Source: a virus. Taken from it: 51,755 nucleotides of DNA. Every line of letters starts with the position of its first letter. Within the stretch, counting starts at the first letter, position 1. Position numbers and translations under genes: made by a program. The notes under the pieces were generated by a model, which saw only the letters and a program-made list of their open reading frames with translations, ran no database searches and was not told where the DNA came from. Positions 1-49,356 of this stretch are shown piece by piece. The stretch covers positions 1 through 51,755 of IMG/VR virus record IMGVR_UViG_3300025070_000049. One strand, written 5' to 3'.

Positions 1-575
1 AAAATAGACCAATTATATTCTGCCCTGCAGGAAGCATGTCTTTTAAAAATATCGATCAAACGTTACCTGTTATGGCAAAGATGATTGAATCGATATGTGA
101 CCATCACAAAGATGATAAAGGCATTATACATACTCATAGCGTTAAAATAGCTAAAGCAATTGTCAACAGCGTTCCTAGTAAATACAGAAAAAGGTTCATT
201 GTTGCTTATGGAGATAATAGAGATGAAATGCTCAAAAAACATATTAATTCTAATAAGCCAACAATACTTGTGTCGCCTTCAATGTCTGAAGGTGTCGACC
301 TAAAAGGAGACCTTTCAAGATTTCAGGTCATATGTAAAATTCCTTTCCCGTACTTAGGTGACAAAGTCGTAAAAAAGAAAATGAACAAGTGGGATTGGTG
401 GTATAACACCCAAACAGTAAGAACCATCATACAAAGTGTAGGTCGCAGTATAAGATCTGAAGATGACGTTGCTGTGACTTATATACTTGACAATGACTGG
501 AATAGGTTAAAGTCGCGAATTAGAAATCTACTCCCGGATGACTTCTATGATAGTTATAAAGAAGTCAACAGTTGA
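1..575 (+). CDS. XPD/DinG-type superfamily 2 DNA helicase, C-terminal part (5' end outside window)
   Basis: The frame is open from base 3 with no start visible, so this is the last ~190 codons of a longer gene. The internal ATG at 36 is probably not the true start. The visible part is the second RecA-like domain. It has a motif-IV-like IIHTHS segment, a motif-V-like SEGVDLKGD segment that ends in an IPFPYLGD stretch, and a motif VI of form QSVGRSIRS followed by an acidic pair. That arrangement is typical of the DinG/XPD/Rad3 branch, whose members are 5'-3' helicases. The Fe-S domain and Walker A/B motifs would lie upstream and cannot be checked. It likely serves phage replication or repair (inference from family). 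It ends with TGA 18 bases before the Nudix start. Confidence 0.8.
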   Translation, partial: NRPIIFCPAGSMSFKNIDQTLPVMAKMIESICDHHKDDKGIIHTHSVKIAKAIVNSVPSKYRKRFIVAYGDNRDEMLKKHINSNKPTILVSPSMSEGVDLKGDLSRFQVICKIPFPYLGDKVVKKKMNKWDWWYNTQTVRTIIQSVGRSIRSEDDVAVTYILDNDWNRLKSRIRNLLPDDFYDSYKEVNS

Positions 576-592
576 TTGAGAAAGAAGATATT

Positions 593-1054
593 ATGAGTTT
601 TGAAAAAAACGTTACTGGGTCTGGTATTGTATGTTATTATGACAATAGAAATAGTTCTGTTAATGAATTAGAAAGTGACATATTATTTTTATGTTTAATT
701 GACTATGAAAATCTTTATGATATTCCTAAAGGAACAATAGACGAAGGTGAGACATTTTTAAACTGCGCAATCAGAGAGACTTACGAAGAATCTGGTCTTG
801 AGTACACAGACTTTACTAAAATAAGCGATCATTATGCTCATTTTGGACAATCAATGGTGACTTTTCTTGGTAATTTAAAAGTAGAAGTCCTCTTAAATAA
901 GTCTATTTTTATAAAGCCTAATCCTAAGACGAAAATTATAGAGCATAAAGGTTTTAGATTTTTAAGTTTAAAAAACATTCTCAATAAAACACCTGACTAC
1001 TTAAAAGAAGTGTTTACGTATTACGATAATTTTATACGAGAGGAAAATGTATAA
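593..1054 (+). CDS. Nudix hydrolase
   Basis: The 153-residue protein has a nearly canonical Nudix box at about residues 47-69: G-x5-E, seven residues, then RETYEESGL. This fits GX5EX7REUXEEXGU except for Thr at one hydrophobic position. The glutamates bind the metal used to cleave nucleoside diphosphates linked to another moiety. A longer frame opens with TTG at 572, overlapping the helicase stop. I prefer ATG 593 because a GAGAAAGAAG purine run lies just upstream and the fold does not need the extra residues. T4 and many marine phages carry Nudix enzymes (such as NudE in T4) that act on ADP-ribose, NADH, Ap3A or nucleotides. The substrate here cannot be read from the sequence. Confidence 0.88.
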   Translation: MSFEKNVTGSGIVCYYDNRNSSVNELESDILFLCLIDYENLYDIPKGTIDEGETFLNCAIRETYEESGLEYTDFTKISDHYAHFGQSMVTFLGNLKVEVLLNKSIFIKPNPKTKIIEHKGFRFLSLKNILNKTPDYLKEVFTYYDNFIREENV

Positions 1055-1066
1055 TATAATTTATAT

Positions 1067-2275
1067 ATGATTAATAAAGACTTAATAAAAATACATAACG
1101 AACTCTCTAGTTTAATATCAATGTGTAAGCGTAAAAAACTAAGACACTACTATAATAAAAATATCTATCAAAGCAGATTTTTATTTTTTAACAACATACT
1201 CGTATCAGAAGAAATTAATAACAGTCCTTACAGGAATATTATTCTTAATTTTCTAAAGACGTCTGAAAGATGTATGCCAGGTGGTTCTTTAATAGCAGCA
1301 GACATGTTTTGTAAAAAAATTATTTCAAATAGAAAATATGTTCCAGAATTTAACAAAGAAGTTGTTAACAAAGAATCTTTGACTAACATTATTGATGATT
1401 TTATTTTTGATGACAAAAATAAAGATATTATTTTAAACTGTCTTTCTTTTGCCGGACCAAATGGTTCTATATACTGTAAACCAAGCAAGAATGATATCGT
1501 CGCTGTAACTAAGACTTGCAGCCCTAGGATTTACACAAGTCTCGATGAAAGCTTTACAGACGTGTATTTTCGTAACATCGATGAAACATCAAAAGCTTTT
1601 ATTTCTATAGCTATGGATGCTTATCTTGAAAGAGAGTCTGAAATCATGACTCTTTTAGAGCATGCTAAAAAAGAAAATTTACCAATTGTTGTTTTTTGTA
1701 GAGGAATGTCAGAAAACTTTAAAAGGAATTTAAAAGAAATAATTCTTAAAAACAGCATATATGTTTATCCTTATATCGTCAAATTTGATAATGATGATCC
1801 TTTTCTTCTTGATGACATATGCTCAGCGCTTAACGTAGAAAAAGTTTCCGCAGAAGCTGGAGATGTTTTCTATAAAGACTTGTTAAAAAAGTCGAATATT
1901 GTCAAATTAAAACTAAGCAAAGACTTTATTGAGTTTTATGATAAACCAGTAAGTGCAGTTAATAAAATAACAGAAAAAATATCTAAAAGCTACGACCCCA
2001 GCTTGCAGCAATATTTAATAAAGAGAAAAAACAGGCTTTCTCCAAACATTACAAAAATTTCTATTCCAGAAAAAGAAATAAAATTAATACAAGACATGAA
2101 GTCTGCTGTTAGACTTTATAATCAAATAGCAACAGGAGGAGTAATCAAGCATGATAATGTTCATTATCCAAAAAAATCTTTTGATTACATTAATCAAATG
2201 ACTGATTCTATAGTTAACAGTATAAACCAAATAGGTTGTGTTGTCAAAATAAAAAGTGAAGAAAAAAATGTCTGA
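1067..2275 (+). CDS. Divergent, shortened GroEL/Cpn60-like protein (intermediate plus apical domain)
   Basis: The protein is 402 residues; GroEL is about 548. From about residue 183 it follows the GroEL apical domain in order. A helix of form EIMTLLEHAKKENLPIVVF matches the GroEL segment ending in KPLLIIAED. A strand-helix region containing IILKNSIYVYPYIVKF matches TMRGIVKVAAVKAP. LLDDICSAL..VEKVSAEAGD matches the MLQDIATLTGGTVISEE region. Next come a KLSKDFIEFYDK segment and a YDPSLQQYLIKRKNRL helix matching GroEL SDYDREKLQERVAKL. Near the C-terminus AVRLYNQIATGGVI resembles the ATRAAVEEGVVAGGG region. The canonical GDGTTTATVL nucleotide motif is absent; only a weak GGSLIAADMF echo is seen. 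I infer a substrate-binding apical module that has lost ATPase activity. These alignments were made by eye from memory. Shine-Dalgarno support is poor: GAGAGG is about 22 bases from the ATG. It overlaps the next gene by 8 bases. Confidence 0.6.
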   Translation: MINKDLIKIHNELSSLISMCKRKKLRHYYNKNIYQSRFLFFNNILVSEEINNSPYRNIILNFLKTSERCMPGGSLIAADMFCKKIISNRKYVPEFNKEVVNKESLTNIIDDFIFDDKNKDIILNCLSFAGPNGSIYCKPSKNDIVAVTKTCSPRIYTSLDESFTDVYFRNIDETSKAFISIAMDAYLERESEIMTLLEHAKKENLPIVVFCRGMSENFKRNLKEIILKNSIYVYPYIVKFDNDDPFLLDDICSALNVEKVSAEAGDVFYKDLLKKSNIVKLKLSKDFIEFYDKPVSAVNKITEKISKSYDPSLQQYLIKRKNRLSPNITKISIPEKEIKLIQDMKSAVRLYNQIATGGVIKHDNVHYPKKSFDYINQMTDSIVNSINQIGCVVKIKSEEKNV

Positions 2276-2744
2276 TCATGTTAAACATCTAATAGAATGC
2301 CAATGTGTCTTATCTATTTTTAAAAACAAGTCCAAACCTATTTATCATAAAATACCTGTTTTCTCTCAAGTAGATGAAAACGGTGATATTAAAGAAAAGT
2401 ATGTGGCGTGTAATAACTGTGGTATTATTCATAGAGTCTATGAGGTATTTAAAAGTGAGGTTAAATGGGGACAAGAAGACGTAAAAAGTTTAATTACGTC
2501 AAAAGACGATATAAAATTTAACTTAGAAGCTCAAGGCTTTGAAAAAATTGTATCGCTTCTAGAAAAGTCCAGTCTAGACGTATCAGACTGGGAAATGATA
2601 GAGCACATATTAGAAAACAACATTTCAGGCAGTGTTGTTTTAGAAAGAAAAGAGTCTGATAATAACGTTATTTTAAAAGCTTTGAATATAGACGAAGACA
2701 ATAGTTTTAAACTTAAAAAAGAAATACTCCAGAGGTACTTATAA
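2268..2744 (+). CDS. Conserved phage protein with zinc-ribbon-like Cys motif, function unknown
   Basis: The 158-residue protein has an N-terminal HLIECQC segment and a CNNCGIIHRVYE knuckle around residues 46-57, suggesting a bound metal ion. The C-terminal half is acidic and helical with no family I can name. From memory, proteins with this N-terminal pattern (HLIECQC, a segment ending YVACNNCG) recur in marine T4-like phages; I cannot verify that here. The frame opens with GTG at 2256, but ATG 2268 is preferred because GTGAAGAA lies upstream. It overlaps the 3' end of the GroEL-like gene and its stop TAA overlaps the next ATG. Translational coupling suggests one operon. A nucleic-acid or RNA-polymerase binding role is possible but unsupported. 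Confidence 0.65.
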   Translation: MSDHVKHLIECQCVLSIFKNKSKPIYHKIPVFSQVDENGDIKEKYVACNNCGIIHRVYEVFKSEVKWGQEDVKSLITSKDDIKFNLEAQGFEKIVSLLEKSSLDVSDWEMIEHILENNISGSVVLERKESDNNVILKALNIDEDNSFKLKKEILQRYL

Positions 2745-2968
2745 TGAATTTAAATCCAAATGAATTAACAGACTTTAAGTCAATTCAAAAATGTAGAGAT
2801 ATCCATCAAGAAATTATTAGTTTTGGTGTTAACGAGCAAGAGATTGTTAAAATTATTGAGTTTCTAGCTTTAGAGCTAGAAAATGCTGATATGATGAGAG
2901 AAATAACGTCTATTGTGAAACCAGGCCAAAATTCTGATTTACAAAAAAAAGAATCTTTGATACTATAA
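2744..2968 (+). CDS. Small helical protein, function unknown
   Basis: The 74-residue protein is mostly helical by appearance, with NELTDFKSIQKCRDIHQEI at the N-terminus and VKIIEFLALELENADMM in the middle. No signal peptide, membrane segment or recognised motif is present. ATG 2744 shares bases with the TAA of the preceding gene (TAATG), the usual sign of translational coupling in this genome. It is probably a real gene because of that linkage and its tight fit in the operon. The role is unknown. Confidence 0.55.
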   Translation: MNLNPNELTDFKSIQKCRDIHQEIISFGVNEQEIVKIIEFLALELENADMMREITSIVKPGQNSDLQKKESLIL

Positions 2969-2972
2969 CACT

Positions 2973-2983
2973 ACTAAAATATT
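2973..2983 (+). promoter_or_regulatory. ACTAAAATATT element before the Hc1-like gene
   Basis: The 11-mer ACTAAAATATT lies in the short gap upstream of ATG 2998 and is repeated exactly at 3490-3500 upstream of phoH. A shorter ACTAAATATT form appears at 18657 and 20306. It could be part of a phage promoter or a regulator site. AT-rich sequence makes chance matches likely, so the call is weak. Confidence 0.2.
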
Positions 2984-2997
2984 GAAAGGAACAAAAA

Positions 2998-3234
2998 ATG
3001 TCAGATCATGTTGACGACCAAATTGACTCATTAGATAACGATACCACGATTGATCCAGCTTCTGTCACAGAGCATTATTCTAGGCTTAAGGTTTTGCTAG
3101 AGTCTATGGAGACAGATATGCTAAAAAACTCCGGTGGAAACAAGGCTGCAGGAACAAGACTTAGGAAAAGCTTGCGACTTTTAAAGAACTATTCCGGAGA
3201 CTTTGTTAAGTTTACCTTATCATCAGACAAGTAA
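2998..3234 (+). CDS. Histone H1-like Hc1-family small protein
   Basis: The 78-residue protein has an acidic N-terminus (about residues 1-26). A basic helical part follows at about residues 28-75, containing LKVLLESMETDM and GNKAAGTRLRKSLRLLK. The latter resembles the N-terminal helical part of chlamydial Hc1-type proteins and bacterial homologues (LKELLESM..D, GNKAAGTRLRK..), which bind DNA. Unlike chlamydial Hc1 it lacks the long Lys/Ala-rich tail. A GAAAGGA Shine-Dalgarno site precedes ATG 2998. The 3' end overlaps the convergent minus-strand gene by 46 bases. Possible roles are phage DNA compaction or transcription silencing (inference). Confidence 0.65.
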   Translation: MSDHVDDQIDSLDNDTTIDPASVTEHYSRLKVLLESMETDMLKNSGGNKAAGTRLRKSLRLLKNYSGDFVKFTLSSDK

Positions 3235-3467
3235 GACTTTTTTCTTAGCTTATCTAAAGAAGCTTTTTCAATCTGACAAACTCTCATTCTTGTAATGCCA
3301 AAAAAATTTCCTACTTCTTGTAGGGTAATATCTTCTGTTTGATTAACTTTATTGATCATACAGTCATTTGAATCAGACAAGTCGTGCCAGAATCTACATT
3401 TTTTATTCTGGCACGACTTGTTTTTTTGTTTGTGTGCTGTAAAGCATGTTGTATCTTTAATACTCAT
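3189..3467 (-). CDS. Small sigma-70 region-4-like HTH protein with Cys cluster
   Basis: The 92-residue protein has a region-4-like helix-turn-helix at about residues 47-76 (ITLQEVGNFFGITRMRVCQIE, then ASLDKLRK), the signature that in sigma factors reads the -35 element. Before it lies a Cys cluster with C8, C19, C24 and C36 in a C-x4-CRFW-x10-C arrangement, probably binding metal. I recall stand-alone phage proteins of the type C..N..CR......D..NC followed by region 4, but cannot search. A GAAAGG Shine-Dalgarno site lies 11 bases from the start. It is divergent from phoH and its 3' end overlaps the convergent Hc1-like gene. It may redirect or modulate host RNA polymerase. A 17-bp palindrome overlaps codons 16-31. 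Confidence 0.75.
   Translation of the reverse strand: MSIKDTTCFTAHKQKNKSCQNKKCRFWHDLSDSNDCMINKVNQTEDITLQEVGNFFGITRMRVCQIEKASLDKLRKKSYLSDDKVNLTKSPE
3377..3427 (+). terminator. Intrinsic terminator-like hairpin inside the antisense sigma-like gene
   Basis: The left arm ACAAGTCGTGCCAGAAT (3377-3393) and right arm ATTCTGGCACGACTTGT (3405-3421) are perfect 17-base complements separated by an 11-base loop. Seven T residues follow (3421-3427). On the plus strand this has the form of a strong Rho-independent terminator, well placed to stop transcription of the 1-3234 operon before phoH. On the minus strand no T-run follows, so it should not terminate the sigma-like gene, within which it lies. Confidence 0.75.
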
Positions 3468-3538
3468 AATAATATAAACCTTTCTTATTACTAAAATATT
3501 TACTATTATAGTTTATAACTTTTGGAAAGGTTTTATAA
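3468..3538. promoter_or_regulatory. Divergent promoter region between the sigma-like gene and phoH
   Basis: This 71-base, very AT-rich gap separates two divergent start codons, so it should hold a promoter in each direction. Each gene has a near-identical leader (GAAAGGTTTATA on the minus strand, GAAAGGTTTTATA on the plus strand), forming an imperfect inverted repeat at the two ends. The ACTAAAATATT element is at 3490-3500. No unambiguous -35/-10 pair is visible. Confidence 0.4.
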
Positions 3539-4897
3539 ATGTCTGATCGAAAAATATTTGTTATTGATACTAGCGTGCTGCTTTATGACAGGAACTGTAT
3601 CTTTAATTTAAAAGATAACGATATATACATTCCTATGACAGTCTTAGAAGAACTAGATAGGTTTAAAAGCAGAGAAGGAATTTTAGGAGAAAACTCAAGA
3701 TACTTCAATAGATTTCTTGATGAAATAAGAAGCGAAGGAAGCCTAAATGAAGGCATATACCCATCAGAGATTAAAGACAGCAAAACTCTTATTAAAGTCA
3801 TAACAGACCAATGTTGGGAAGGTATTGATACTCTAGACAAAACTAATAATGACAACATGATCTTGTCTAATGCAAACTATGTAAAACGAAATCAAAACGG
3901 TTTGTCTAATCAAAAGGTAATAATAGTTACTAAAGATATAAACCTAAGAGTTAAAGCTGATGCAGCTGGTCTCGATGCTAATGACTACTATGCTGATTAT
4001 TCTTTTATTAAGAACAAGAAAGACAATGATGGCATTTTCAAAGGATACAAAGAAATTCACGTAGATGCCGGCGTAATTAATTCTCTATATAGTCATAAGT
4101 CTTTGGCAATGAGTACACTTGTTAAGACAGTAGGTATTGATCCTTTAACAATATCGCAAAATGAATTTGTAGTGTTAAAATCAATTGACAACAATTCAGG
4201 ATCAGCGCTTTGCGCCAAACGTGGTAACGCTTTAGAGTTAATTAAGTCTAAGTCTGAACTTTATAGCAAGTTAGGAATTGAAGCGAAAAACAAAGAGCAG
4301 ATATTTGCATTAAATCTTTTAGAAGATGACAATATTCCACTGGTTACGTTGACTGGTGTGCCTGGAAGTGGCAAAACCTATTTGACACTCATGTCTGCAC
4401 TTAAAAAAATAGAAAGAGAACAAAAGAACAGAATTATTTTTACTAGACCAATCCAGACTGTTGGTAAAGATATAGGTTTTCTCCCAGGAACATTAAACGA
4501 AAAAATGTCACCTTGGTTAGCACCTATTGTTGATAATTTTAGAAATCAATTTGGTGACTTATCTTACTTCGACATCATGATGGAAAAAGGAACTATTGAT
4601 ATTGCACCTCTCTCGTATATAAGAGGTCGAAGCTTTAATGATGCAGTCATCATTGTAGACGAAGCACAAAATGCAACAGTTCATGAACTTAAAACTGTAA
4701 TTACGAGGACAGGCAAAAACTCTAAAATAGTTTTGCTTGGAGATATAGAGCAAGTTGATTTGCCATATATAGATAAAGACTCAAATGGTTTAACAATTAT
4801 CATAGAGAAACTTAAGAATGAAATTGTCACTGGTCACGTTAACTTTGAAAAAGGATACAGATCAGAATTGGCAAACGTTGCAGCAAAACTTCTTTAA
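3539..4897 (+). CDS. phoH: PIN-PhoH fusion ATPase
   Basis: The 452-residue protein has two parts. An N-terminal PIN-type nuclease domain (about residues 1-150) shows VIDTSVLLYD, LEELDRFK and VTKDINLRVKADAAGLD, with acidic residues at the positions expected for metal binding. The PhoH ATPase domain (about 240-452) shows Walker A GVPGSGKT near residue 273 and Walker B VIIVDEAQNA near 371, then a VLLGDIEQVD sensor-like segment. This is the PhoH2/YlaK layout, whose bacterial members act as RNA helicases with ribonuclease activity. PhoH-type genes are frequent in marine phages, but their role in infection is unsettled. SD GGAAAGG precedes ATG 3539. It has its own upstream region after the terminator-like hairpin, so it may be separately regulated. 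Confidence 0.93.
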   Translation: MSDRKIFVIDTSVLLYDRNCIFNLKDNDIYIPMTVLEELDRFKSREGILGENSRYFNRFLDEIRSEGSLNEGIYPSEIKDSKTLIKVITDQCWEGIDTLDKTNNDNMILSNANYVKRNQNGLSNQKVIIVTKDINLRVKADAAGLDANDYYADYSFIKNKKDNDGIFKGYKEIHVDAGVINSLYSHKSLAMSTLVKTVGIDPLTISQNEFVVLKSIDNNSGSALCAKRGNALELIKSKSELYSKLGIEAKNKEQIFALNLLEDDNIPLVTLTGVPGSGKTYLTLMSALKKIEREQKNRIIFTRPIQTVGKDIGFLPGTLNEKMSPWLAPIVDNFRNQFGDLSYFDIMMEKGTIDIAPLSYIRGRSFNDAVIIVDEAQNATVHELKTVITRTGKNSKIVLLGDIEQVDLPYIDKDSNGLTIIIEKLKNEIVTGHVNFEKGYRSELANVAAKLL

Positions 4898-4912
4898 CTA
4901 ATAGGATGATAC

Positions 4913-5233
4913 ATGTTTATTAAAAGCAAATATGATTTAAACAGATACAAAAAGGTGTATCCTTTGATTAGAACTAGGCCTATCTATGATGAGATAAACA
5001 TGCTTGGTCAGGGTGCGTCAGAAGTTACTATACTAGACTTTAATAACTCTCATGAAGAAACGTACACTTTTACTGAAACGTACACTCAAATTCCTGTTAT
5101 TGCTGCTACGCCTGCAGATGACAATGTTAATGTTTTCATCACGTCATTGACAAGTACAACAGTAACAATAGAGTCTTCATCAAACTTTACAGGCAAAGTC
5201 CACGTTCAAGTGTTTATAAACGAGGAAAACTGA
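4913..5233 (+). CDS. Small beta-sandwich virion protein, H-type-lectin-like
   Basis: The 106-residue protein has an N-terminal segment of about 35 residues followed by a beta-rich domain, with HEETYTFTETYTQIPVIAAT, then NVNVFITSLTSTTVTIESS and a SNFTGKVHVQVF end. This strand order resembles the short H-type-lectin-like beta modules found in phage tail proteins, where a sentence such as 'TVTF..PF..TPVV..TP' leads into 'VNVYISSVTTTGFTV'. It starts the structural block, 15 bases after phoH, with AGGATG before ATG 4913. It is a likely minor fibre or receptor-binding component. It resembles the next gene and may be a diverged duplicate. Confidence 0.6.
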   Translation: MFIKSKYDLNRYKKVYPLIRTRPIYDEINMLGQGASEVTILDFNNSHEETYTFTETYTQIPVIAATPADDNVNVFITSLTSTTVTIESSSNFTGKVHVQVFINEEN

Positions 5234-5234
5234 T

Positions 5235-5453
5235 ATGAGCTTTGCTAGAGGAATAATAAGCTTTTCTGCTGGAGAAAGAGAAAAAACTGTTACTTTCGAA
5301 GAAGCGTTTGCAAGCTTACCTGTAATTAAACTAACACCTAATAACAATACAAGCTTATATTTAGCAGACGTTCAAAATAGTTTTTTTGTTGTACAGAAAA
5401 ACAATGATTTAGAATTAACTGTTAACTATATTGCAATAGAAAGCGAATCGTAA
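5235..5453 (+). CDS. Small beta-sandwich virion protein related to its upstream neighbour
   Basis: The 72-residue protein is almost entirely one beta domain. GEREKTVTFEEAFASLPVIK corresponds to the TYTFTETYTQIPVI segment of the preceding gene, and LELTVNYIAIE forms the last strand. It lacks the N-terminal leader of its neighbour. The ATG at 5235 follows the previous stop by one base and its own TAA overlaps the ATG of the giant fibre gene (TAATG), so all three are probably translated together. It is likely a small tail or fibre-associated lectin-like subunit (inference). Confidence 0.6.
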   Translation: MSFARGIISFSAGEREKTVTFEEAFASLPVIKLTPNNNTSLYLADVQNSFFVVQKNNDLELTVNYIAIESES

Positions 5454-8400
5454 TGGCAAAAGACTTTTTAAGTGATCAGATTAGAACCAAAGCCTTAATT
5501 GGCTCAGGATCCGCACCGAATCCTAAAATAACAGTTTATGCAGACACAGATGCACCTGACAATGAAGGATCAGTCCCGTCAGGACTTTTATCTAACGTTG
5601 GATCTGATGTTTTCCTATTTGTCAGTGGAGCAATAGATGGCAAAGAAAATAACTCAGATAAGTCTGTAACTTTGTTTGGCGGCGATGTAGTAGTAAGTGG
5701 AACTTTATATACTGAAAATCATGTCGTTGAAGTAGATGCTGTTTCAACAGGCTCTCTATCAGTTTCTGGTTCTATTATACATTCTGGAGGAATAAATATA
5801 GGGACAGCAGAAGACGGTAGTTATTTAGACGGACTCTTTACAGACTTTACAGACAATACTTCTGTTGGGACTGTAGTCGACAGATTTAATGAAGTTTTAA
5901 AAGGCTTAGCACCAAGACAAGCTCCGGAACTCCAAGACTTCACAGTCGAAGATCCGTCACCACCTGCACTAAGCTCTTATTTATCTTTTGGGCTAAATAA
6001 TGATCAATCACCTGGATATACTTCTGTTATTGCGCTCGAAGGATACCCAGTCGTTGATGTCAATGGTTTGTATCAGGCAGAAAATTCACAAACAACTAAT
6101 GATAAACTTCATTACAAGCTCGGTGTTTTTCGAAAAACAACAAATATTGAAGGAGTACTGAACGACCTACAGAGCAGTGATGTTTATACAAATAATATTG
6201 TAAACTATCCTGAGAACTCCTTTTCTTCAGCAAATGAAGGAGAGCTCAAGCTTTTTCTAAATGGTAATGAAATCCATTCTATTGATTTAACGACTTCTGT
6301 AGGACTAGGTGCCCCAGGATCGGGAACAGGAAACCATTTAAACTCTAACGGTAGCGGTTTCAAAAACTTAAGTGAATCATCTCCAGGAAAGTTTGCATCT
6401 GAACAAGAATTTTCTACTTTTACTCATAGAACTGGCAACTGGATTATTCATCATGCAGATCAAGTCAATGGTTTTAACTATGTACAAGTTAAACATGTAA
6501 TACCTGGTCAGGTCGATAAAATAACTGGGTTTGCGCAGTGGGTAAATGACGACAATAACGAAAATTTATCTGTTTTATCTTCTGGATTAACTTTAAATCT
6601 AGCAGGTAGTAAACATCTAAGCGGAGTAGAATATTTTACTGGCGGTACTGCAGATTACTCTGCAAGTATATCTAATTTCTATAAATATACTTACAGCACA
6701 ATTGCGTCTAGCATTGATGCTTCTTCCATGCCTAGCGGATCTTCTATTTTGTTTCCTGATTCTAGTATTAGTCAAATTAATATAGCAACTGAAGATCATA
6801 CTAAAAACTTGAATGTACAAAGCACAGGAACAATAAGTCTACCAAGTTCAGGTAGAATTATTACTGAAGCAAACCCAGGTATTGAAGTAGGCTGTAGTGT
6901 TTTTCACCCATACAAATCGATTAACCAGAGTTTAACTTTGTCAAGCCAGTCAGAAATTTTAATTGACAATTCATCAAGCTTTAGTAACAATACTAGTGAG
7001 GAGTTTAGAGATGAAAGTCACAGACTAATTAGTACAACATTTAACAATCAATCTGATATCAGCAACACATCAAATCAATGGTCCTCAACACAACGAATAA
7101 CATCCGGTAATTCTGGATATGACGACGGTCTTCTTGTCTATAATGACAAACTCATGTCTACGAAAAATACAAACATTATAAATAGTGGAAATTTTTCTAC
7201 TTTGTTAAACGGACCATCAGGTAATCCAGATTATTCTAACGGGAATATAAACGCTGGCACTAAAAGATATATAAGAAAATATACAAATACTACGGGAAGT
7301 GAAGTCAGAGACATTCGCTATAATATTAGTGGTGTAGGTCAAATACTTTCTCATTCTACTAGTTTAGGAAGTAACAATAACAACTTTAAGCTTTATTTTA
7401 AACTCCCAGGGTCTTCATCTTGGTTAGACACAGCAACAGACTTTTCTTATAACACAATAAATCCAGATGGTAGTGGTGGTAAGATTGGATCTTTTACTAA
7501 CAATATATCACAAAACCCAAATAACTACTTAACGTTTGGAACATCTGCAATTGGTAACAATGAATCGATTCTTGTCAAAGTAGAGTCTAACAAGACTTGG
7601 CTTGGAGAAATAGATTACTTGAATGTTAACTTTGGAGCTGTTGGTTCTGTTTTGCCGTCTCCTGACACAACCAATATAGATTCTAATAACTCAGGTGTTA
7701 CAGGAAATCTAAGCTTTGGTGCAAACCTTGCTAAAAGCTCATACCAAAATGTTGGAAGTTTAGGTAGCTCAAACCAAGTTAATGCTAATGATGAATATAG
7801 GATGACGTCATTTTCTAATAATCTTAGAAGAGGCATATTTGATGGATCTGTATCGATAAACGGGGAAATAAATGAAACAACGTCGTCACAAGGAAATAAC
7901 TACCCAGCAAACGCTTGGGGAGGCGGAAAAGCAAATGTTGGAGAGTTAAAGCTTGAAGTCAACGGAACAATCATCCCCCAATGTACAGTTAACTTATTTA
8001 CGTTTTCCAGCGGTAACTCTTTAAACTCAAACAACACAGGTTTCCTTAATATAACAGAAGCACTTGTAGGTAGAGACAATAATAACTTGCCTGATTATCG
8101 ATACTTTTACAGAACAGGAAGTTATCAAATCAACACTTCAGATCAGAGATACGGATGGAATTATGCAAGAGTAATTCACGATCTTGATGGAGGAACAAAT
8201 GTATTTGAAACAAACTATGTTGAATGGGTAAATAGCGAATATTCATCTATGTCATTTACCCCGCTTGCAATTCCTACAAATACTTTTGTGCAAGGAACTA
8301 CACCACCCAACTATCTATCAGGAGTAAATTACTTCTCTTCAGCTCGAGCAACTTGTCAAACAACAGTATCTAATGCTTATAAAAATATTTATGACAGCTC

Positions 8401-36260: not shown

Positions 36261-38483
36261 ATGCCAAAAATAAGAAATAAGCCTAATTTATTTTCAAACG
36301 GTTCATACAGGAAAAAGTCGGGTATCTTAACTAGATCTTTAAAGAACATAGTAAAGAAAGAAAAGTCTTATGATAGATTTACGCTTCCAGACTACAATTT
36401 TTCAAGTGTATCTAAAAAAGTAAATATCAATCCTTATAACGACAATAATACAATAAATTTTGTATATGACAATGTTAATCCAGTCTTTTGTGTAAATGAC
36501 AGATTTAAGTCAAACAACAAAGTCCTGCATTCTCCTAACGAATTTAACACTATAGACACAGTCAGTAAATTAGTTACAAGAGGTATCTGTAGTAATTTTA
36601 TCTTGGAAAATCATGAAGATCTAGACACATACTCGACTCCTTTTGTTGATAATAAAAATAAAAGAACAGATCAGGAAACAACGTCTTCACATGTAATTCC
36701 TATTGACTTAGAGTTTTCTAGTGACTGTCGACTCTCCTTCAATAAGAAATCTAGCGATCCTAGTCAAGTTTCATTATTAGGTGAAAACTACAATACTCAC
36801 AACGGAAACGTTGTGTTTTTTAATTTTGAAGATAAAAACTGGGAATACGTGCTAGATGTTGATAAAAACTATTTTGAAAACATTGATGAATTTCTAAAAG
36901 CGCCGATTGCCTTTAACAGCTTAGAATCAAATAAGCAGAATAAAATTTTGCAATCAAGTAATGCAACACCAATCAACACTTTTGGATTTCCTTACGAAAA
37001 AAGATTTCAAGGCATGAAAAGGCACTTTTTTCCACTCAAACATCACATAACAGACGTCTTTGTTTTAGAAGGTATTAGAGTTAATATATGCAATACATTG
37101 AAGGCAGAGTCAACTACCACAGACAATTCTTCAATTCTAAATTCACTTACTTTTTTTGTTATTAATCAAAGGTCAAACTTAAATGGAATATCATTTGAAA
37201 ACTTAGAAGACAACACTAAGACAATTGAGTATTATAATACAAGTCAAATTAGCACGAAACTTATAAATCATGAAATTGGTGGTGTTTCTCCTTCGACATA
37301 TAATACATACACAGTAATGACAAATACAGGTACTGTAAGTGAATCAACTCAAGTAATTACTGGATCTATAGATCAAGAAAGCATAACTTATCCAGAAAAA
37401 CAGTCTTCTCAAAGAGAATTAGTTGCCTACACTAATTTTGTTAACTACTCAAGCTCTATTAATACTGATAGTGTAATAGATAAACAAAAAATTAAAAGTG
37501 ATGCAAACTATTATAGCGAGACAATACAGCAGCCTTCTTTGTCTTCTAATTTTGCTGAAATTGATTTTGTTAGAAAAAGTATTGAATCATATGGCACTGT
37601 GGCAATGCCTGTATATAATGATAGATTAGAAACAATTAGTCAATTCCAGATATATCCTTCTTCTAAATTTGAGACTAGGTCGGGTTGCATTTATAGGTCA
37701 GAAAGATCATTAAGCACAGTATTTGAGCCTCAAAAAAACCTAAAGACATCTACAGATGATAATAATGTTACTTTGTCGTTTGGAAGTGAGTCCAAAAAAG
37801 AAAATGGATATGTTTTACATCCTAGCGACAACTTAATTTTAGGATTTTCTTTTGATACAAACAAAAATATAAGTCATCTCAATACTTCAAAATTAGGAAA
37901 AGACATTTCAATATTACATGACAAAGTATCTATCGAGCTAGTAGGTAGATACATGAGAAACTCAAAATACTTTTCTAATAATAGACAGAATTATAGTCTT
38001 AAAGGAACTGTTAACGTTCTAGGAAATACAGACAATATTGTTGACAGTGTTGGTATGAGTAACATTTATCTTAATAAAGGTGCATATTATGATGCAAATG
38101 TATATGTGTCTTTACCGCTGCCTATTGGTGGTGCTTTAAGTATACCTAATATTGACTCTGGCTCACTTTTTAACTCTAATAGCAAATCTTTCAACAATTA
38201 TTTGAAAGTTAAAAATAGCAACGAAAAACTTGTAGACAACGACCCATCTTCAGTTGGTGGTGCTGTTTTTTACAACAGCAGCTATCTAAGCTATTTAAAG
38301 TTTGGTCAACCAAAAGACAAACTTTATTATTTTAAATCATCAGCTTACAGGAAAGACAAAAATAAAGTCTTTTTAGTCAAAAAACTATTTATGACTAACT
38401 TCTTGACTAAAAAGACTTCTACAATTACTCAAAATCCGACACGAAACTCAACAATTGACTACCCAAATCCTTTTGTCGAATAA
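36261..38483 (+). CDS. Large structural-cluster protein, function unknown
   Basis: The 740-residue protein starts with a basic segment (PKIRNKPNLF, KKSGILTRSLKNIVKK). Its body is Asn/Ser/Thr-rich, with a histidine-containing patch MKRHFFPLKHHITDVFVLEG near residue 255. The C-terminal region contains LSFGSESKKENGYVLHPSDN and LILGFSFDTNK, then a Gly-rich hinge and a basic end. I recognise no family. It is packed between two structural genes and is probably a virion component. A terminator-like hairpin with a GAAA loop lies inside it at 36798-36821. Confidence 0.55.
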   Translation: MPKIRNKPNLFSNGSYRKKSGILTRSLKNIVKKEKSYDRFTLPDYNFSSVSKKVNINPYNDNNTINFVYDNVNPVFCVNDRFKSNNKVLHSPNEFNTIDTVSKLVTRGICSNFILENHEDLDTYSTPFVDNKNKRTDQETTSSHVIPIDLEFSSDCRLSFNKKSSDPSQVSLLGENYNTHNGNVVFFNFEDKNWEYVLDVDKNYFENIDEFLKAPIAFNSLESNKQNKILQSSNATPINTFGFPYEKRFQGMKRHFFPLKHHITDVFVLEGIRVNICNTLKAESTTTDNSSILNSLTFFVINQRSNLNGISFENLEDNTKTIEYYNTSQISTKLINHEIGGVSPSTYNTYTVMTNTGTVSESTQVITGSIDQESITYPEKQSSQRELVAYTNFVNYSSSINTDSVIDKQKIKSDANYYSETIQQPSLSSNFAEIDFVRKSIESYGTVAMPVYNDRLETISQFQIYPSSKFETRSGCIYRSERSLSTVFEPQKNLKTSTDDNNVTLSFGSESKKENGYVLHPSDNLILGFSFDTNKNISHLNTSKLGKDISILHDKVSIELVGRYMRNSKYFSNNRQNYSLKGTVNVLGNTDNIVDSVGMSNIYLNKGAYYDANVYVSLPLPIGGALSIPNIDSGSLFNSNSKSFNNYLKVKNSNEKLVDNDPSSVGGAVFYNSSYLSYLKFGQPKDKLYYFKSSAYRKDKNKVFLVKKLFMTNFLTKKTSTITQNPTRNSTIDYPNPFVE
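36798..36821 (+). terminator. Intragenic terminator-like hairpin with GAAA tetraloop
   Basis: CACAACG (36798-36804), loop GAAA, CGTTGTG (36809-36815), then six T residues. The stem is seven perfect pairs and the loop is of the stable GNRA class. It lies in frame inside the 740-residue gene, so if active it would stop part of the transcripts early. Confidence 0.4.
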
Positions 38484-42077: not shown

Positions 42078-45000
42078 ATGCCAGTAATCAAACAAAGCAC
42101 AGGGTCTTCAAGTATATTAGTTCGTTCTTCTGGTAAAAGCTCAGGACTTAAGTCTGTTAATGATAGTCCTATTAATGATCTTAACAGTCAAAAAGAAAAA
42201 GAGTATCAAATTAAACTAGACCCTATTATTTTTAAAAAAAACTTAGAGTCTAAAATACTGAGTCAGCAAAATCGAGTATTAAGAACATTCACAAAATCAA
42301 GTTTAGAAATAGAAGACTTTAGTGACTTAGAAAACGCTGTGAGTAATGTTGACAATCAACAAACAAATGAAATACAAAATCCTAACACTGTGGTTGATAG
42401 ACTAACGTCATCTTTTTCGGGAAATAGAATAACCTCAACGAGTCAAGACAGCATTGATGATACAAGAATAAGTCAACTCGTTGAGGTTGTGGATTTATTG
42501 CCAGATGATACTTTTTTGTTAGATTTTACTGAAGGGGATTTTGTTGAAGGTGACTTCAGTATTGATGAGTTTTCTTTTACTAGTTTAGGAAAGTTGATCG
42601 AAAGATCAAGAAAGAGCATGCAAAATACAAATATCAAAGTTCTTTCGCATGAAATATTCAAGATAAACAAACTGTCATCTGGGGAATTTGATACAAATTT
42701 GCTTTTCTTGGACTTTAGAAGTCAAGAAAACTCAACACTACTTAATTTGAAAAACAGTGAAATAGAAATTAAAGAGTCACATTCTGACAGACTGTTTTTA
42801 TACGTTGACGACTTCAAACATAACGAATTAATTCAAGAAAGTTACAATAAATCGATAAGACTTGTAAATAAAATCAATAAAACTTCAAAATTAAGTAATA
42901 GACTAGAAAACGAAATTAATTACGGAAATATAATTGAAAACTTCATAAAAGAAGGAAAAAGTGATTTTATTGGAAAAATATCAAATCAAATACTTTTAAA
43001 TAGTAACAACTACAAAAAACTAACTGGAGGAGATGACGAAGTACTTTTAGACTTACAGCATAAGTCTTCAAAGTCTATATTAAGCAAGGAAAATTTAGAA
43101 ATATTCTACAAAAATATCTCAGGATTTGACTACAAAGAAAAAGACGTTAGATTTAGTAATAGTGTGTCAAACTTTAAAATTGTTAATACTGATAGACTTG
43201 TAGGACAATTTATGGTAAATTATGCTGTTGGTCAAAACAGCATTTACCCAAATTCTGATGATGTGTTAAACTTAAATTATTACAGTTCAAGTATAAGAAA
43301 AAAAATAAATGGTGATGCTTTTAACAAGTACCCAATAATACAGTTTAAAGATTTAAATATTAACTCTAGGATATTTAGCAATAAAAAACTAGAGTTTTTA
43401 GCAGTTACAGGCAATACTTTAAATATTGACAAAGTATTGAAAAATATTGATGAGACGTTAGTAAACGAAAACTATGAGCCTTTAACTGTTATTAACTCTC
43501 TTTTGTTTTTTTCTGGAAGTGATATTATTGATACTGGTGAAAAATATAACGAAGGCGAAGATACTAATACAAGAGGGACAAGTTATAAAAACAGAAAAAG
43601 CTTGGCTGGTAAAAAAAGTGTTAATCGTTCCAATCAAAATGAAATAGACAATAATATATTTTCTATTAAAGCAGTAGATAAAGATCCAAATAGAGTGACA
43701 GGAGATCAGAGCTTTAGCAGCAATGAGTTTTTATTTGAGAAAATATATTTGGACGTCGATACTAAATATAATTCTAGTAATGCGTATTTATTACCTTGTT
43801 TTTTAAAGCTACCTACGAGATATTTTACAAAAAACACATCACCTAATTCTATTGAAAGACTAGAGGAAGGAAATGATGTTACACTGACTAATAGATCGAT
43901 AGCAGACTTATCATCACATAATAATCGGAGCAGTATTGACAGTGAAAGTGAAATTAAGGATAAAATAAAAGAAAGTCTGTTTAGCGGTCCTTATAACTTT
44001 TCTGAAGATGTTAACACTGGTGGTAATGATGTTGGGTCATTATTAAATAATAGCAGTTTTGGGTTATCTTATATAAACGCTGTGGATTCTTTTCTTGATT
44101 TTTTAAAAGTAAAATACTCTAAATTTATAAATGGAGGAGAAAATACTTTAAATAACACAGTAAAAATTACAAGCACTAGTTCGTCAACATCTTTTGAAAG
44201 CTATTTGGATGACTATGTTATAAGAACAAAAGACAACATAAGCATAACAACTTTTAGCGACTTCGCCACAAAATTACAAAATATTCGAGATAGTGATGAT
44301 GATGTTGACAATATTTCTTCTTTGTTTAATACGTCTTTAAAAGACAGAGGTAACATATATGAAAGTGATATTGAAAAAATAAAAAACGACTGTTTTGTTT
44401 TTAGTACAAGCAACAGCTTTTTAAATTCAAAAGAAATTAAAGATGTCATTTTGTCTAACTACAGTAATAAAAAAATAAAAGACTTAGGTTTAAATGATAT
44501 CAAAATAAAATCAATAAAGGATGCTGACGAAAGATTTTTGAACAAAAGAAACACAACTGATAATGTTTTAAGTGTCTTTAGTGAAAAAAATAATGTTGCA
44601 CATTTAACTTTAAAAATATCAAACGTTATTAATTTAATAAGAAAAAAACGTTCAGACAATAAGATATTTCAATCTATATTTGACAAGGTAAAATCTAAAA
44701 TAGTTCAACAAGACAACTTTACTCTTCTTTATGATACATTTAAAGAAAATTGTATTGATACTTTTGAAGAAAGCCCTTTTATAACAAGTAAAGGATTTTA
44801 TAAGAACAACTTCGTTGAAGAATTTAACTCAGAAAATAAAAATACGACAAAGTTAGTTATTGACAAAGACAATGACATTGAAGACAATAAGCTTTTTACT
44901 TCAAAAGAGTTTAGAAAATATTTGTCCAAAATTTATACAAAGTCTTTTGTTAGAAGTAAATCAACTTTATTAAACAGGATATTAAGCGACAATATTGACA

Positions 45001-47708
45001 TGTTTGAATTAGAAAGCGATTATCCTCGTAGCTTTTCAAACATATCTAATTATTTTGGATTTGATGTTTTATTAGCAAAATCACTCTCTGGTATAAATAG
45101 AAACAATGCAAACGAAGTTAAAGATGTTTGTAAGATTATACTAGCTAATTCAATCATTAAATCATGTGGAATAGATAGTCAAATAAAGTCTGTATATAAA
45201 TTGCCATCTTCTCGTTTTGGAGGAAAATCAAGTAGTAAAACATTAAACAAAGACATTAGTGATGATTTAAGAAAAATTTTTGGTGAAGAAATTATTAACA
45301 ACTTTGTTAACGTGATATTCAATAAAGAAAACATTTACAGCATGAACAACAAGATCATCAGATCAGTTCATACTAACAGTATGAATAATATTAAATCTTT
45401 TAATTTAACTTCTGTAGATGCTATTAATGGTTTAAGTCTAGATTATGTAGACGGAAATATGTGTGAGTTAGTTTTTCCTGGACATTATGTAGTCAAAGAA
45501 TTTGGAAAAAAAGAAGATGCAATTAAATCTGTGTCTGGCAGTGCTATAAGAAAATCTTCGACTATAAATGACAACTTCTTTAGTAGTCAAGCCAACATAA
45601 ACAATAAAAAAAGAGAGTTAAGAGAAAACCTGTACCAGGCTAGTTCTAACATGTCATACAACTACGATGTTTTTATCAATGAAGAAGAAACAGGTACTGT
45701 TTTTTACGAAAAAAGCGAAGAAGACTCATCTTACTCAAAAAAAGGCTTTAACTTTGCAAAAGATGAAATAAACAAAGGCATTGATTTAAAAATAACGTAT
45801 AATTTGTTTAAAAGAGTATTAAAAAGTGATATTAGAGGTTTGAACAATGATGGCTTAGGAAAGCTTGTAGTCCCATACCGCAACTCATTTGTCTATATAC
45901 CTATGAGTTATTTTTATCTTTCAACAAAAAGAAATACCTTTTCTAGAAAAATAACAGATATCTGTACAGACTTGTTATCTGTTTTTGATATAAAATATGA
46001 CAATATAAACAACGTTGAAGAAGTATTTAAATTCATAGATAACAATACTTATTTGACAAGAATAACTCAAGATATTCTTGAAGTTTTTTCTATCATATAC
46101 TTACAAAGTTTTGAAAGTTACAATACGTATACAGAAGAAAAAATAAGACTAGAGTCTATAAATAAAGACATGTCTATTGACGAGTTCAGGTTTTTTGTTA
46201 AAGACTACAATATTTTGAATTCTAGCATAGAAAATCGTTCTTTTGTAGTTAGTGATATAAAGTCAATACTTAGTCAAAATTCTGAACAGTTGGAAAATCC
46301 AGAATATCAAACTAGCGATATTATTTTACAAAACTCTCCTGCGGTTATCAATAGGGATGTTATACACACAAAAAGATTCTTTGAATTACAAGTAGTAAAT
46401 AAAATACTGCAAAACAGCGATATATCTGAATCTTTGTGTTTGGATATTATACATGGTTATTTTGCAAATCTAGAGTCGAATAAAATTCTAGAGATAGAAA
46501 ACAAAAAAGAGCTCGAAAAAAACATAGAAGAAATTAGCAAAACAATAAATAGTATTCAAGGAATAAGCTCAATTAATATACAAGACCATATATTTGACGA
46601 GTTCTATCAGAACAAGTTATCTAAGGATATTCAAGAAATAATGTTTTATAAAAATATTTTTAACGAAACGTTTATAAGAAACAACCTTTATAATAGTAAT
46701 AGACAAAAATATGAAAACGAAAACATGTTTAATCATAGAAAGCTTTTTTATAATAATAGCTACAACAGAGGACTTCAAAGTTTAAACTTAATAGGAAATT
46801 ATTCAAGTAGTGAAGTGAATAGTTTACTAGACATATTAAAAATACCAATAGATTTTAAAATTGCAAACAAAATCGGTACAAGAGGTTTTTTGAAGATAAA
46901 TATTCAACCTGTTAATTTAAAATATCCTGAAATTGAATACAAGTCTATCTCAAAGTATTATACTCCAATGTTAACAGGATTGACAAGTAATTTTATGTCT
47001 AGTTTATCTAGTAACTTTTTTGACTTTTGCGGAATATACAATGATACACAAAAAATATCTGAGAGGTATAATGTTGTGTCTAAGGATATCGCAATATCAG
47101 AAGTTAAAAATCTTTTAAGTGATATTTTTAGTCTAGCCGCTGAAGAGGGTCGAGTAGTTTTAAACGCAAATACTAGCTTGTTATCTTCAAGTGTTTATGA
47201 TGACAATATTATTTCTTCTGCTATAAGCCATCTAGACTTTATCACACAGTCTCCTTTAAACGAGAACATTAAATTAAACGGAGAAAAATTAGACAATTTA
47301 ATAAATAAAGAAACAATCAGCTTATTAAATTCAGTTGATATTGAAAGCTTGAAAAATGCTATAGGAAAAATTGATGAAAATATTTTAAGTGATGACTTTG
47401 TTGAAAATGACAAAGAATACACTCAAACGCTAGGAAATAGTAAAGTTTTAAAAAATAATGAATTTTATCATAAGTTTATAAAAGACTTAGACAGAGACAT
47501 GTCACAACAAGATCTTATTTTAGCTATGATACCAAACAACATATATGATGTTTTTAACATAGTAGTTAACAGAGACCTAATTAGTATAGACACAGGATCG
47601 AGCAGCAACGAAATAATCGATATGGGACTAGGTTCTTTTAATAGTCCCGTTGGATCTCTTAATAAAAGCCTGTGCATAAGTTATTACATAAGCTTTGAGG
47701 TACTTTAA
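42078..47708 (+). CDS. Giant 1876-residue virion-cluster protein, function unknown
   Basis: This is the longest gene in the window and it has no domain I recognise. It is rich in Asn, Ser, Lys, Ile and Asp, lacks membrane segments and shows no long heptad repeat, unlike a typical tail tape measure. The N-terminus is Ser/Gly-rich (IKQSTGSSSILVRSSGKSSG). The middle alternates loops with short helices. The C-terminal part has clear helices (LEKNIEEISKTINSIQ, IFDEFYQNKLSKDIQEIMFY). The gene lies between large structural genes and its 3' end touches the next start. Candidates are a baseplate-periphery scaffold, a long fibre or an ejected protein; the sequence does not decide between them. Confidence 0.55.
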   Translation: MPVIKQSTGSSSILVRSSGKSSGLKSVNDSPINDLNSQKEKEYQIKLDPIIFKKNLESKILSQQNRVLRTFTKSSLEIEDFSDLENAVSNVDNQQTNEIQNPNTVVDRLTSSFSGNRITSTSQDSIDDTRISQLVEVVDLLPDDTFLLDFTEGDFVEGDFSIDEFSFTSLGKLIERSRKSMQNTNIKVLSHEIFKINKLSSGEFDTNLLFLDFRSQENSTLLNLKNSEIEIKESHSDRLFLYVDDFKHNELIQESYNKSIRLVNKINKTSKLSNRLENEINYGNIIENFIKEGKSDFIGKISNQILLNSNNYKKLTGGDDEVLLDLQHKSSKSILSKENLEIFYKNISGFDYKEKDVRFSNSVSNFKIVNTDRLVGQFMVNYAVGQNSIYPNSDDVLNLNYYSSSIRKKINGDAFNKYPIIQFKDLNINSRIFSNKKLEFLAVTGNTLNIDKVLKNIDETLVNENYEPLTVINSLLFFSGSDIIDTGEKYNEGEDTNTRGTSYKNRKSLAGKKSVNRSNQNEIDNNIFSIKAVDKDPNRVTGDQSFSSNEFLFEKIYLDVDTKYNSSNAYLLPCFLKLPTRYFTKNTSPNSIERLEEGNDVTLTNRSIADLSSHNNRSSIDSESEIKDKIKESLFSGPYNFSEDVNTGGNDVGSLLNNSSFGLSYINAVDSFLDFLKVKYSKFINGGENTLNNTVKITSTSSSTSFESYLDDYVIRTKDNISITTFSDFATKLQNIRDSDDDVDNISSLFNTSLKDRGNIYESDIEKIKNDCFVFSTSNSFLNSKEIKDVILSNYSNKKIKDLGLNDIKIKSIKDADERFLNKRNTTDNVLSVFSEKNNVAHLTLKISNVINLIRKKRSDNKIFQSIFDKVKSKIVQQDNFTLLYDTFKENCIDTFEESPFITSKGFYKNNFVEEFNSENKNTTKLVIDKDNDIEDNKLFTSKEFRKYLSKIYTKSFVRSKSTLLNRILSDNIDMFELESDYPRSFSNISNYFGFDVLLAKSLSGINRNNANEVKDVCKIILANSIIKSCGIDSQIKSVYKLPSSRFGGKSSSKTLNKDISDDLRKIFGEEIINNFVNVIFNKENIYSMNNKIIRSVHTNSMNNIKSFNLTSVDAINGLSLDYVDGNMCELVFPGHYVVKEFGKKEDAIKSVSGSAIRKSSTINDNFFSSQANINNKKRELRENLYQASSNMSYNYDVFINEEETGTVFYEKSEEDSSYSKKGFNFAKDEINKGIDLKITYNLFKRVLKSDIRGLNNDGLGKLVVPYRNSFVYIPMSYFYLSTKRNTFSRKITDICTDLLSVFDIKYDNINNVEEVFKFIDNNTYLTRITQDILEVFSIIYLQSFESYNTYTEEKIRLESINKDMSIDEFRFFVKDYNILNSSIENRSFVVSDIKSILSQNSEQLENPEYQTSDIILQNSPAVINRDVIHTKRFFELQVVNKILQNSDISESLCLDIIHGYFANLESNKILEIENKKELEKNIEEISKTINSIQGISSINIQDHIFDEFYQNKLSKDIQEIMFYKNIFNETFIRNNLYNSNRQKYENENMFNHRKLFYNNSYNRGLQSLNLIGNYSSSEVNSLLDILKIPIDFKIANKIGTRGFLKINIQPVNLKYPEIEYKSISKYYTPMLTGLTSNFMSSLSSNFFDFCGIYNDTQKISERYNVVSKDIAISEVKNLLSDIFSLAAEEGRVVLNANTSLLSSSVYDDNIISSAISHLDFITQSPLNENIKLNGEKLDNLINKETISLLNSVDIESLKNAIGKIDENILSDDFVENDKEYTQTLGNSKVLKNNEFYHKFIKDLDRDMSQQDLILAMIPNNIYDVFNIVVNRDLISIDTGSSSNEIIDMGLGSFNSPVGSLNKSLCISYYISFEVL

Positions 47709-47709
47709 T

Positions 47710-49356
47710 ATGATTTTAGATAATGTAAGTGACGTCATTGTATCAATAGCAGACAAGTTTGATTCTAGGGAGATAGAGTGCAAGTTTGATTTCATATACA
47801 ACAGTTATGATGACAAAGAATCTATAATAGATGATAACATTATAACTAACAGAGAAACAAACTACAGTAAAAACAGATTCATAAGAATTAATTTAGAACA
47901 TCCTAAAAGTATAGGAATCACTTCAGAAGCAAATATCTTTGAAGAGATATTTGCTTCTTTTTTGTCTGATTTATCTAATAGAAATTTATATGAAGAAGAT
48001 AGAAGTTTTTTTAATAGAATCGATATGCTTTCTCCTTCGAAAATATCTTTAATACAGGATCATAAAATAAATGACTTAAAATCTTTTTTCAAGATATATT
48101 CAGGAAAAAACTCAGACTTTGACGAAAATGACTTTAGAGGTTTAGATAAGTCTAAAAAAGTAAGTTTTGAAATGGATATGCTATATGAGACTGCGTATGG
48201 AAATAAAGAGTATGTTGAAGTTTTCAACTCAGAAAACATAAAAAATTACCAACAACTTATCAACAGTGAAGAAGTTTATAACGCAAGAAAAAACAAAAAA
48301 GACTCTGTTGAAAAATTTAAGTCTGGAGTATTACTTCCTAATTTAAAACCTATTTCTAAGTCTATTAATTTTGGTGATGTACAAGATTATATTGACAAAA
48401 ATGCAGTTTTTTGTGGTTTGTATGTTGAAAAGTTTTGTAAAGAAGATGACATTTATAATTTTAAGTGTGCTAAGTTTGTACCAAGAGATAGTAAGTCTAA
48501 AAGTATTTTCAATGAAACTTTAGAAGACGAAGCTATTAAATACGGGGAGACGTATAGATATGTTTGTCACTACGTCTATCATTTTATGTGTTTAAGTGAA
48601 GAAAACAGATTTATGTTAGATCATTTTCTATTATGCACCGAACCATATATCAGTAATGATTTAATTTGTAAGGAATTTAATCCGCCTCCTCCTCCAACAG
48701 GCATCTCAGCTGAATATGATAAGCTCGTCGACAAGCTTTTTTTAAAATGGCGTCATCCTACAGACTATGAGAATGATGTCAAAGGATACCAAATATTAAA
48801 AAGGAAAAGCCTTGAAGAGCCTTTTGTATTAACACGCCAGCTTGAAGGTCACCTTCAAACAGATGCGTATGAATTAATAGAATTGGTCTCTGCTAACAAT
48901 ATAGACAAAACACCTGGATATATACCAGACTTCTTCGAAGATAAAACGTACAATAAAAACATACTTTGTATCTATACAGTTAGATCTATTGATGCACATG
49001 GCATGGTATCAAATTACAGTGAACAAATAGCTATATATTATGATTTTCTTAGAGATGAACTCATAGTTGACTCTGTTGCATCTCATGGTGCAAGAGTAGG
49101 TTATCCTAACGAAACTATTAGAAATAAGTCTATGTTTTTTGAAAACAAAGTTGATGTTGTAGACAATATGCCTATTGTTAAAAATCCTAAAAAAATAAGT
49201 GTATACATAACACCTGATTATGGTTCAGTTTTGTCAAGTAGCGAAGATGAAAAACTATTCCCACAAGAAAAAAATGTAGAGTACCAGTTTACTTTTAGTA
49301 ATCTAAATAGCTTAGTTTATCGAAGTGATAAATTTACTATTAGTAATTTTGGTTAA
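47710..49356 (+). CDS. Structural protein with fibronectin type III-like domain
   Basis: The 548-residue protein has a C-terminal fibronectin type III-like domain at about residues 324-440. A proline run (FNPPPPPTGISAEYDKL) leads into LFLKWRHPTDYENDVKGYQI and later YTVRSIDAHGMVSNYSEQIA, the expected B, C, F and G strands. The N-terminal 320 residues are unassigned, with helical and acidic segments and several Cys (FCGLYVEKFCKEDDIYNF). The frame opens at TTG 47695, but ATG 47710 with TTTGAGG upstream is preferred. FN3 modules are common decoration domains in phage tails. A 14-bp terminator-like hairpin lies within codons 72-84. Confidence 0.65.
   Translation: MILDNVSDVIVSIADKFDSREIECKFDFIYNSYDDKESIIDDNIITNRETNYSKNRFIRINLEHPKSIGITSEANIFEEIFASFLSDLSNRNLYEEDRSFFNRIDMLSPSKISLIQDHKINDLKSFFKIYSGKNSDFDENDFRGLDKSKKVSFEMDMLYETAYGNKEYVEVFNSENIKNYQQLINSEEVYNARKNKKDSVEKFKSGVLLPNLKPISKSINFGDVQDYIDKNAVFCGLYVEKFCKEDDIYNFKCAKFVPRDSKSKSIFNETLEDEAIKYGETYRYVCHYVYHFMCLSEENRFMLDHFLLCTEPYISNDLICKEFNPPPPPTGISAEYDKLVDKLFLKWRHPTDYENDVKGYQILKRKSLEEPFVLTRQLEGHLQTDAYELIELVSANNIDKTPGYIPDFFEDKTYNKNILCIYTVRSIDAHGMVSNYSEQIAIYYDFLRDELIVDSVASHGARVGYPNETIRNKSMFFENKVDVVDNMPIVKNPKKISVYITPDYGSVLSSSEDEKLFPQEKNVEYQFTFSNLNSLVYRSDKFTISNFG
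47925..47963 (+). terminator. Intragenic terminator-like hairpin with 14-bp stem
   Basis: AGAAGCAAATATCT (47925-47938) and AGATATTTGCTTCT (47945-47958) are perfect complements separated by six bases, and five further T residues follow. It has the form of an intrinsic terminator on the plus strand, 215 bases inside the FN3-like protein gene. A perfect 14-base dyad with a T-run is unlikely by chance in a sequence of this size. Confidence 0.55.

Follow-up and report, generated by a model that had tools for sequence, protein, structure and literature searches.

A probable unidirectional intrinsic terminator fitted into the coding sequence of an opposing sigma-like gene in a virus

Intrinsic (Rho-independent) terminators are nothing unusual where two genes converge, and they are often bidirectional, for example in Zymomonas mobilis and Escherichia coli (PMC7566282). 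In E. coli, the ribosome represses a terminator that follows a stop codon by only a few base pairs, and efficiency rises as the distance grows (PMC4824070). Perfect inverted repeats can also reside within genes, as demonstrated by the mitochondrial genes of Nematomorpha, whose coding palindromes reach 284 bp (PMC6649704). Among the open papers we surveyed, there was no described terminator placed in an opposing coding sequence like the one analyzed here. This element is found in a stretch of 51,755 nucleotides of viral DNA (IMG/VR record IMGVR_UViG_3300025070_000049), hereafter the window, where a plus-strand hairpin is located inside a minus-strand gene for a sigma-like protein of 92 residues (Table 1).

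Table 1. Positions of the features discussed in the text (window coordinates unless a related contig is named)
Feature	Position	Strand	Remarks
Hairpin, 5' arm (ACAAGTCGTGCCAGAAT)	3377..3393	+	17 nt, 100% complementary to 3405-3421
Hairpin, loop	3394..3404	+	11 nt
Hairpin, 3' arm (ATTCTGGCACGACTTGT)	3405..3421	+	pairs with 3377-3393
T7 run (U-tract)	3421..3427	+	more T-rich sequence up to about 3431
Sigma-like gene, 92 aa	3189..3467	-	four-Cys N-terminal segment and sigma-70 region 4 helix-turn-helix; Pfam PF04545, 3e-10; codons 16-31 under the hairpin
Hc1-like gene	2998..3234	+	Pfam PF07432, 2.3e-10; convergent with the sigma-like gene, 46-nt overlap
PIN-PhoH gene	3539..4897	+	Pfam PF02562 and PF13638; 3' of the presumed terminator; transcribed divergently from the sigma-like gene
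Perfect 14-bp stem, then T6	47925-47958	+	score 19.9, second-best terminator in the window
Inverted repeat, 19 nt, 95%	38365-38418		minus-strand T tract; near the end of plus-strand gene 36261-38483
Perfect inverted repeat, 17 bp	L022:3714-3750		3-nt loop, without a T tract; close to where the homologues of orf402 and orf162 meet

A preliminary description of this DNA had reported a perfect 17-bp hairpin with a T7 run at 3377-3427, and both the position and the form were borne out by our analysis. Position 3421 belongs both to the stem, as its last base, and to the run, as its first T. The minimum free energy of the RNA hairpin is -29.3 kcal/mol, as compared with -10.0 ± 2.7 for shuffled sequences (z = -7.2), and none of 200 shuffles was as low. 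The U-tract score (nT) of the site is 5.57, where the background probability of nT ≥ 4.6 is 0.002. The sequence has two hallmarks of an intrinsic terminator, namely a stable hairpin in the nascent RNA and a U-tract directly after the stem. Because a standard terminator scan with a loop limit of 8 misses this hairpin with its 11-nt loop, we wrote a separate scoring script, which is our own simplified implementation of a d'Aubenton-Carafa-type score (d) combining hairpin energy per length with the U-tract. The hairpin scored 41.8, the highest value in the 51.7-kb window, followed by 19.9 for the runner-up. On the minus strand, the sequence past the stem (CTGATTCAAATG) contains no T-rich tract and the sense-strand score is under the threshold, so the element does not have the makings of a bidirectional terminator. 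Perfect repeats of at least 17 bp with a loop of 3-15 nt occur only twice in 312 kb comprising the window and related loci; one is the window hairpin and the other lacks a T tract.

The runner-up at 47925-47958 probably ends the gene at 42078-47708, in which case the next open reading frame would start later than the listed TTG at 47695. This genome seems to use such terminators, since the second perfect repeat of at least 14 bp in the window also carries a T6 run in the plus direction. The repeat at 38365-38418 is terminator-like but opposed to the gene in which it lies, and we saw no minus-strand gene there. The repeat in L022 does not look like a terminator. No known RNA family or tRNA was detected across the window.

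The open reading frame under the hairpin is a real gene with some fifty homologues in viral contigs. Residues 45-76 of its product match PF04545 with 39.9 bits (cut-off 24.1). Region 4 is the sole match in Pfam and sigma region 2, which binds the promoter -10 element, is absent; the protein is not a complete sigma factor. Among cultured phages we obtained only two weak matches, both to Vibrio phages, and no relatives were found in bacterial and archaeal genome contigs. Four cysteines, C8, C19, C24, and C36, are invariant across 31 homologues; C19 and C24 fall within the stem-loop and C8 and C36 outside it. The earlier statement that the dyad encodes residues 16-31 of the minus-strand protein (ORF 3467-3189), including C19 and C24, is correct. 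It had further been proposed that the same bases serve as a terminator in one direction and as a protein metal site in the other. The terminator-like form, the coding role, and the invariance of the Cys cluster all held up, and the four invariant cysteines suggest a metal site, which we regard as a candidate only, with two of its four cysteines under the hairpin. The predicted structure of the Cys part has a pLDDT of about 61-71, which is too uncertain to judge how close the Cys side chains would come around a metal. Besides this virus and its relatives L002 and L003, the C-R-F-W-H-D motif occurred in unrelated open reading frames only.

How much of the stem is dictated by the protein? In the register of the hairpin, third codon positions of one arm oppose third positions of the other. 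From the amino acids and the codon usage of the window, about 12 of the 17 pairs are expected on average, which makes the 17-bp repeat less surprising than a free 17-mer would be. Given the protein and this codon usage, the probability of all 17 pairs is 0.0015 (0.15% of the synonymous versions), and that of the inner 15 is 0.0046. Whereas 13% of the synonymous versions of the gene scored above zero, a score of 41.8 did not occur in any of the 2,000 versions made by codon sampling or the 2,000 made by codon permutation. The protein sequence by itself favours a weak structure resembling a terminator; the strength of the one in the window comes from codon choice.

The preliminary description had suggested a comparison of related phages to see whether synonymous sites keep the pairing. 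L001, which matches the window without a difference across 5,276 bases, represents the same virus and was left out as evidence of conservation. The nearest independent relative is L002 (together with L003), the protein of which is 65% identical. It is also the sole independent lineage sharing the stem of the window. All of the inner 15 pairs are kept in L002, the residues encoded on both arms are the same, and two compensatory wobble-wobble changes distinguish it from the window (AAG:GAC to AAA:GAT and CAG:TTC to CAA:TTT). Synonymous sites between the two are saturated, with 0.505 identical codons vs. 0.469 expected if independent, so descent alone is unlikely to have preserved the stem. The chance of 15 perfect pairs in L002 is 0.0046 with the codon usage of the window and about 0.016 with the frequencies of L002 itself, the latter calculated by hand. 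As a terminator, L002 is only mildly unusual: its U-tract is weaker than that of the window, its score is d = -6.9, and scores at least as high arose in 56 of the 2,000 versions with sampled codons and in 384 of the 2,000 with permuted codons. At L002:2549-2589, AAATCGTGC occurs twice (Lys-Ser-Cys codons) with the second copy in the loop, making alternative pairings of the HDL codons possible; in L009, the pairing copy is the second KSC. Farther out in the family, most homologues pair only 1-12 of the 17 positions, and we rejected the stem as a family-wide feature conserved in one register. Synonymous sites keep the pairing in the nearest independent relative and not in most homologues, and a lack of stem conservation, which had been named as speaking against the terminator, applies to most homologues but not to the nearest one.

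We also scored the antisense strand of 48 distinct homologues of the sigma-like gene for terminators with d > 0, located in the gene or across its end. Such antisense terminators were found in 5 of the 48, namely the window virus, L025, L037, L049, and L052. That of the window virus spans codons 17-31. In L025, a different stem of 19 pairs covers codons 22-37 over the Cys segment and is followed by TTTTTATTT. The related L037, L049, and L052 have theirs at around codons 71-83, toward the C terminus, where the pairing is kept though both the stem sequence and the amino acids differ; the terminator of L037 was not significant under codon permutation. In L029 and L030, a terminator is located immediately beyond the stop codon of the sigma-like gene and is intergenic. 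Resampling predicted about 0.3 in-gene cases (the total of 1.31 includes 1.0 from the intergenic L029). Of 480 control windows in other genes, one had an antisense terminator; sense-strand terminators with d > 0 were absent from the controls and from the sigma-like gene itself in the 48 homologues. Fisher's test, calculated by hand, gave about 3e-5 for 5/48 vs. 1/480, and about 2e-3 when only three independent lineages were counted. Among homologues that share the gene order, the majority lack a scoring terminator inside the sigma-like gene. An in-gene antisense terminator is recurrent but not obligatory, and the comparison suggests that antisense terminators are favoured inside this gene, with a position that shifts between lineages. 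We also considered whether, across the family, the Cys segment in particular shows excess antisense folding, and rejected this as weak and unspecific (mean z of -0.94 vs. -0.67 for the helix-turn-helix control segment).

The gene neighbourhood bears on what the element would terminate. Common to more than 20 homologues are a Nudix gene, two unknown genes, an Hc1-like gene, the inverted sigma-like gene, and phoH. The block 36-4897 (DinG helicase, Nudix, orf402, orf162, Hc1-like, the inverted sigma-4 protein, and PIN-PhoH) is kept across many viral contigs, which are without a close DNA relative among sequenced phages. For window positions 1-8000, no DNA-level relatives were found among cultured phages, and orf402 and orf162 did not match any Pfam or PHROGs family. 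The Hc1-like gene is probably the last gene of the terminated transcript. Its overlap with the sigma-like gene, 46 nt in the window, is 4-17 nt in most close relatives with a locatable Hc1 end. In the gap 3468-3538 between the divergent sigma-like gene and phoH, ribosome-binding sites are arranged as mirror images (AAACCTTTC...GAAAGGTTTTAT), likewise in several relatives. The ACTAAAATATT motif, common to the regions upstream of the Hc1-like gene and phoH, was rejected as a signal, as it is no more frequent than by chance.

Taken from the sequence, the element is likely a unidirectional intrinsic terminator, consisting of hairpin and U-tract, that serves the left-hand gene cluster and has been fitted into the opposing gene. 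RNA polymerase leaving this cluster (DinG-type helicase, Nudix, two unknown genes, and Hc1-like) would be stopped at the hairpin, 142 nt past the Hc1 stop codon and within the opposing coding sequence, ahead of the sigma/phoH divergent promoter region and of phoH. A terminator would be inside the opposing gene because the ends of the Hc1-like and sigma-like genes overlap and leave no intergenic room. Synonymous codon choice on the motif KSCQN...RFWHDL, already quasi-palindromic, would fit the terminator into the gene. By analogy with E. coli, repression by the ribosome near stop codons may explain why the site that serves lies so far into the opposing gene. We infer that polymerase would stop there in infection, that the left-hand transcript is the one served, and that selection, not only mutation, would keep the stem.

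Could the stem instead be a by-product? The protein motif would then give a quasi-palindrome, template switching during replication would have perfected the arms without any selection for termination, and the T run would represent Lys, Asn, and Gln codons read from the other strand. The protein does supply about 12 of the 17 pairs, template switching is able to form perfect stems, to preserve them, and to bring about double compensatory changes (PMC8794818), L022 holds a 17-bp perfect repeat without a T tract, shorter T-less perfect repeats also occur in these viruses, and the stem is absent from most homologues. Template switching could thereby account for the origin of the stem, but not for the antisense terminators at other gene positions in other lineages, given that the sense strand has none and controls have them rarely, and we consider a pure by-product unlikely. 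A role of the dyad on the minus strand or as DNA, either as an operator or as a hairpin in the sigma-like mRNA, close to the beginning of the gene, that slows translation, is very improbable. A perfect dyad could bind a protein, and the sense RNA of the hairpin segment folds unusually well too (z of -4.35 in the window and -1.82 in L002). However, the T tract is one-sided in the orientation of a plus-strand terminator, the sense strand does not score as a terminator, and among viral contigs the exact dyad pattern is limited to this virus and L002/L003, with no second copy seen among the repeats of the window.

Another possibility is that the terminator also regulates. The preliminary description had a transcript from the left running antisense through part of the sigma-like gene, which could couple the two; ending at the hairpin, such RNA would span 3189-3427, or about 86% of the gene, which is more than a minor portion. 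An active left operon could then lower the sigma-like protein through RNA antisense to most of its mRNA, resembling an excludon, an established concept (PMC7154746). Convergent overlap is common across the family. The antisense extent is unconserved, however; in L037, L049, and L052 the transcript would end near the far end of the gene and in L029 and L030 just past it, leaving this coupling quite unlikely. Returning to termination as such, a broader conjecture, to which we give little credence, would make the lone inverted sigma-like gene of this phage group a standing site of the left operon's terminator, re-evolving at different coding positions with the turnover of stem and codons; for the lineage of the window, its position might also set the antisense cover of the regulator, with the left operon tuning a transcription factor.

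On the terminator reading, the locus would be a compact and testable example of two functions sharing one set of bases on opposite strands: the terminator of one operon appears to constrain the synonymous sites in a conserved regulator next to it. It suggests how packed phage genomes place terminators when intergenic space runs out, and it serves as a reminder that, where phage genes converge, signals on one strand can shape codon choice on the other.

The element is an ordinary one in an unusual placement, as becomes clear from comparison with known systems. The overlapped protein shares with solved RpoD/SigA structures the helix-turn-helix of sigma-70 region 4, yet it is short and has a four-Cys N-terminal segment in place of regions 2 and 3. 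As in the coding palindromes of Nematomorpha, both arms of a perfect inverted repeat encode conserved residues, but those palindromes are far longer and mitochondrial, while the stem in the window has 17 bp and an antisense U-tract. As in an excludon (PMC7154746), the geometry would allow an operon's transcript to cross an adjacent gene in antisense, whereas the extent of overlap is unconserved in the phage family and regulation is hypothetical here. The intrinsic terminators of convergent genes likewise have a hairpin and a U-tract where two such genes meet; the one in the window differs in lying about 140 nt within the coding sequence of the opposing gene, in being unidirectional by score, and with its stem running through conserved codons of the Cys cluster.
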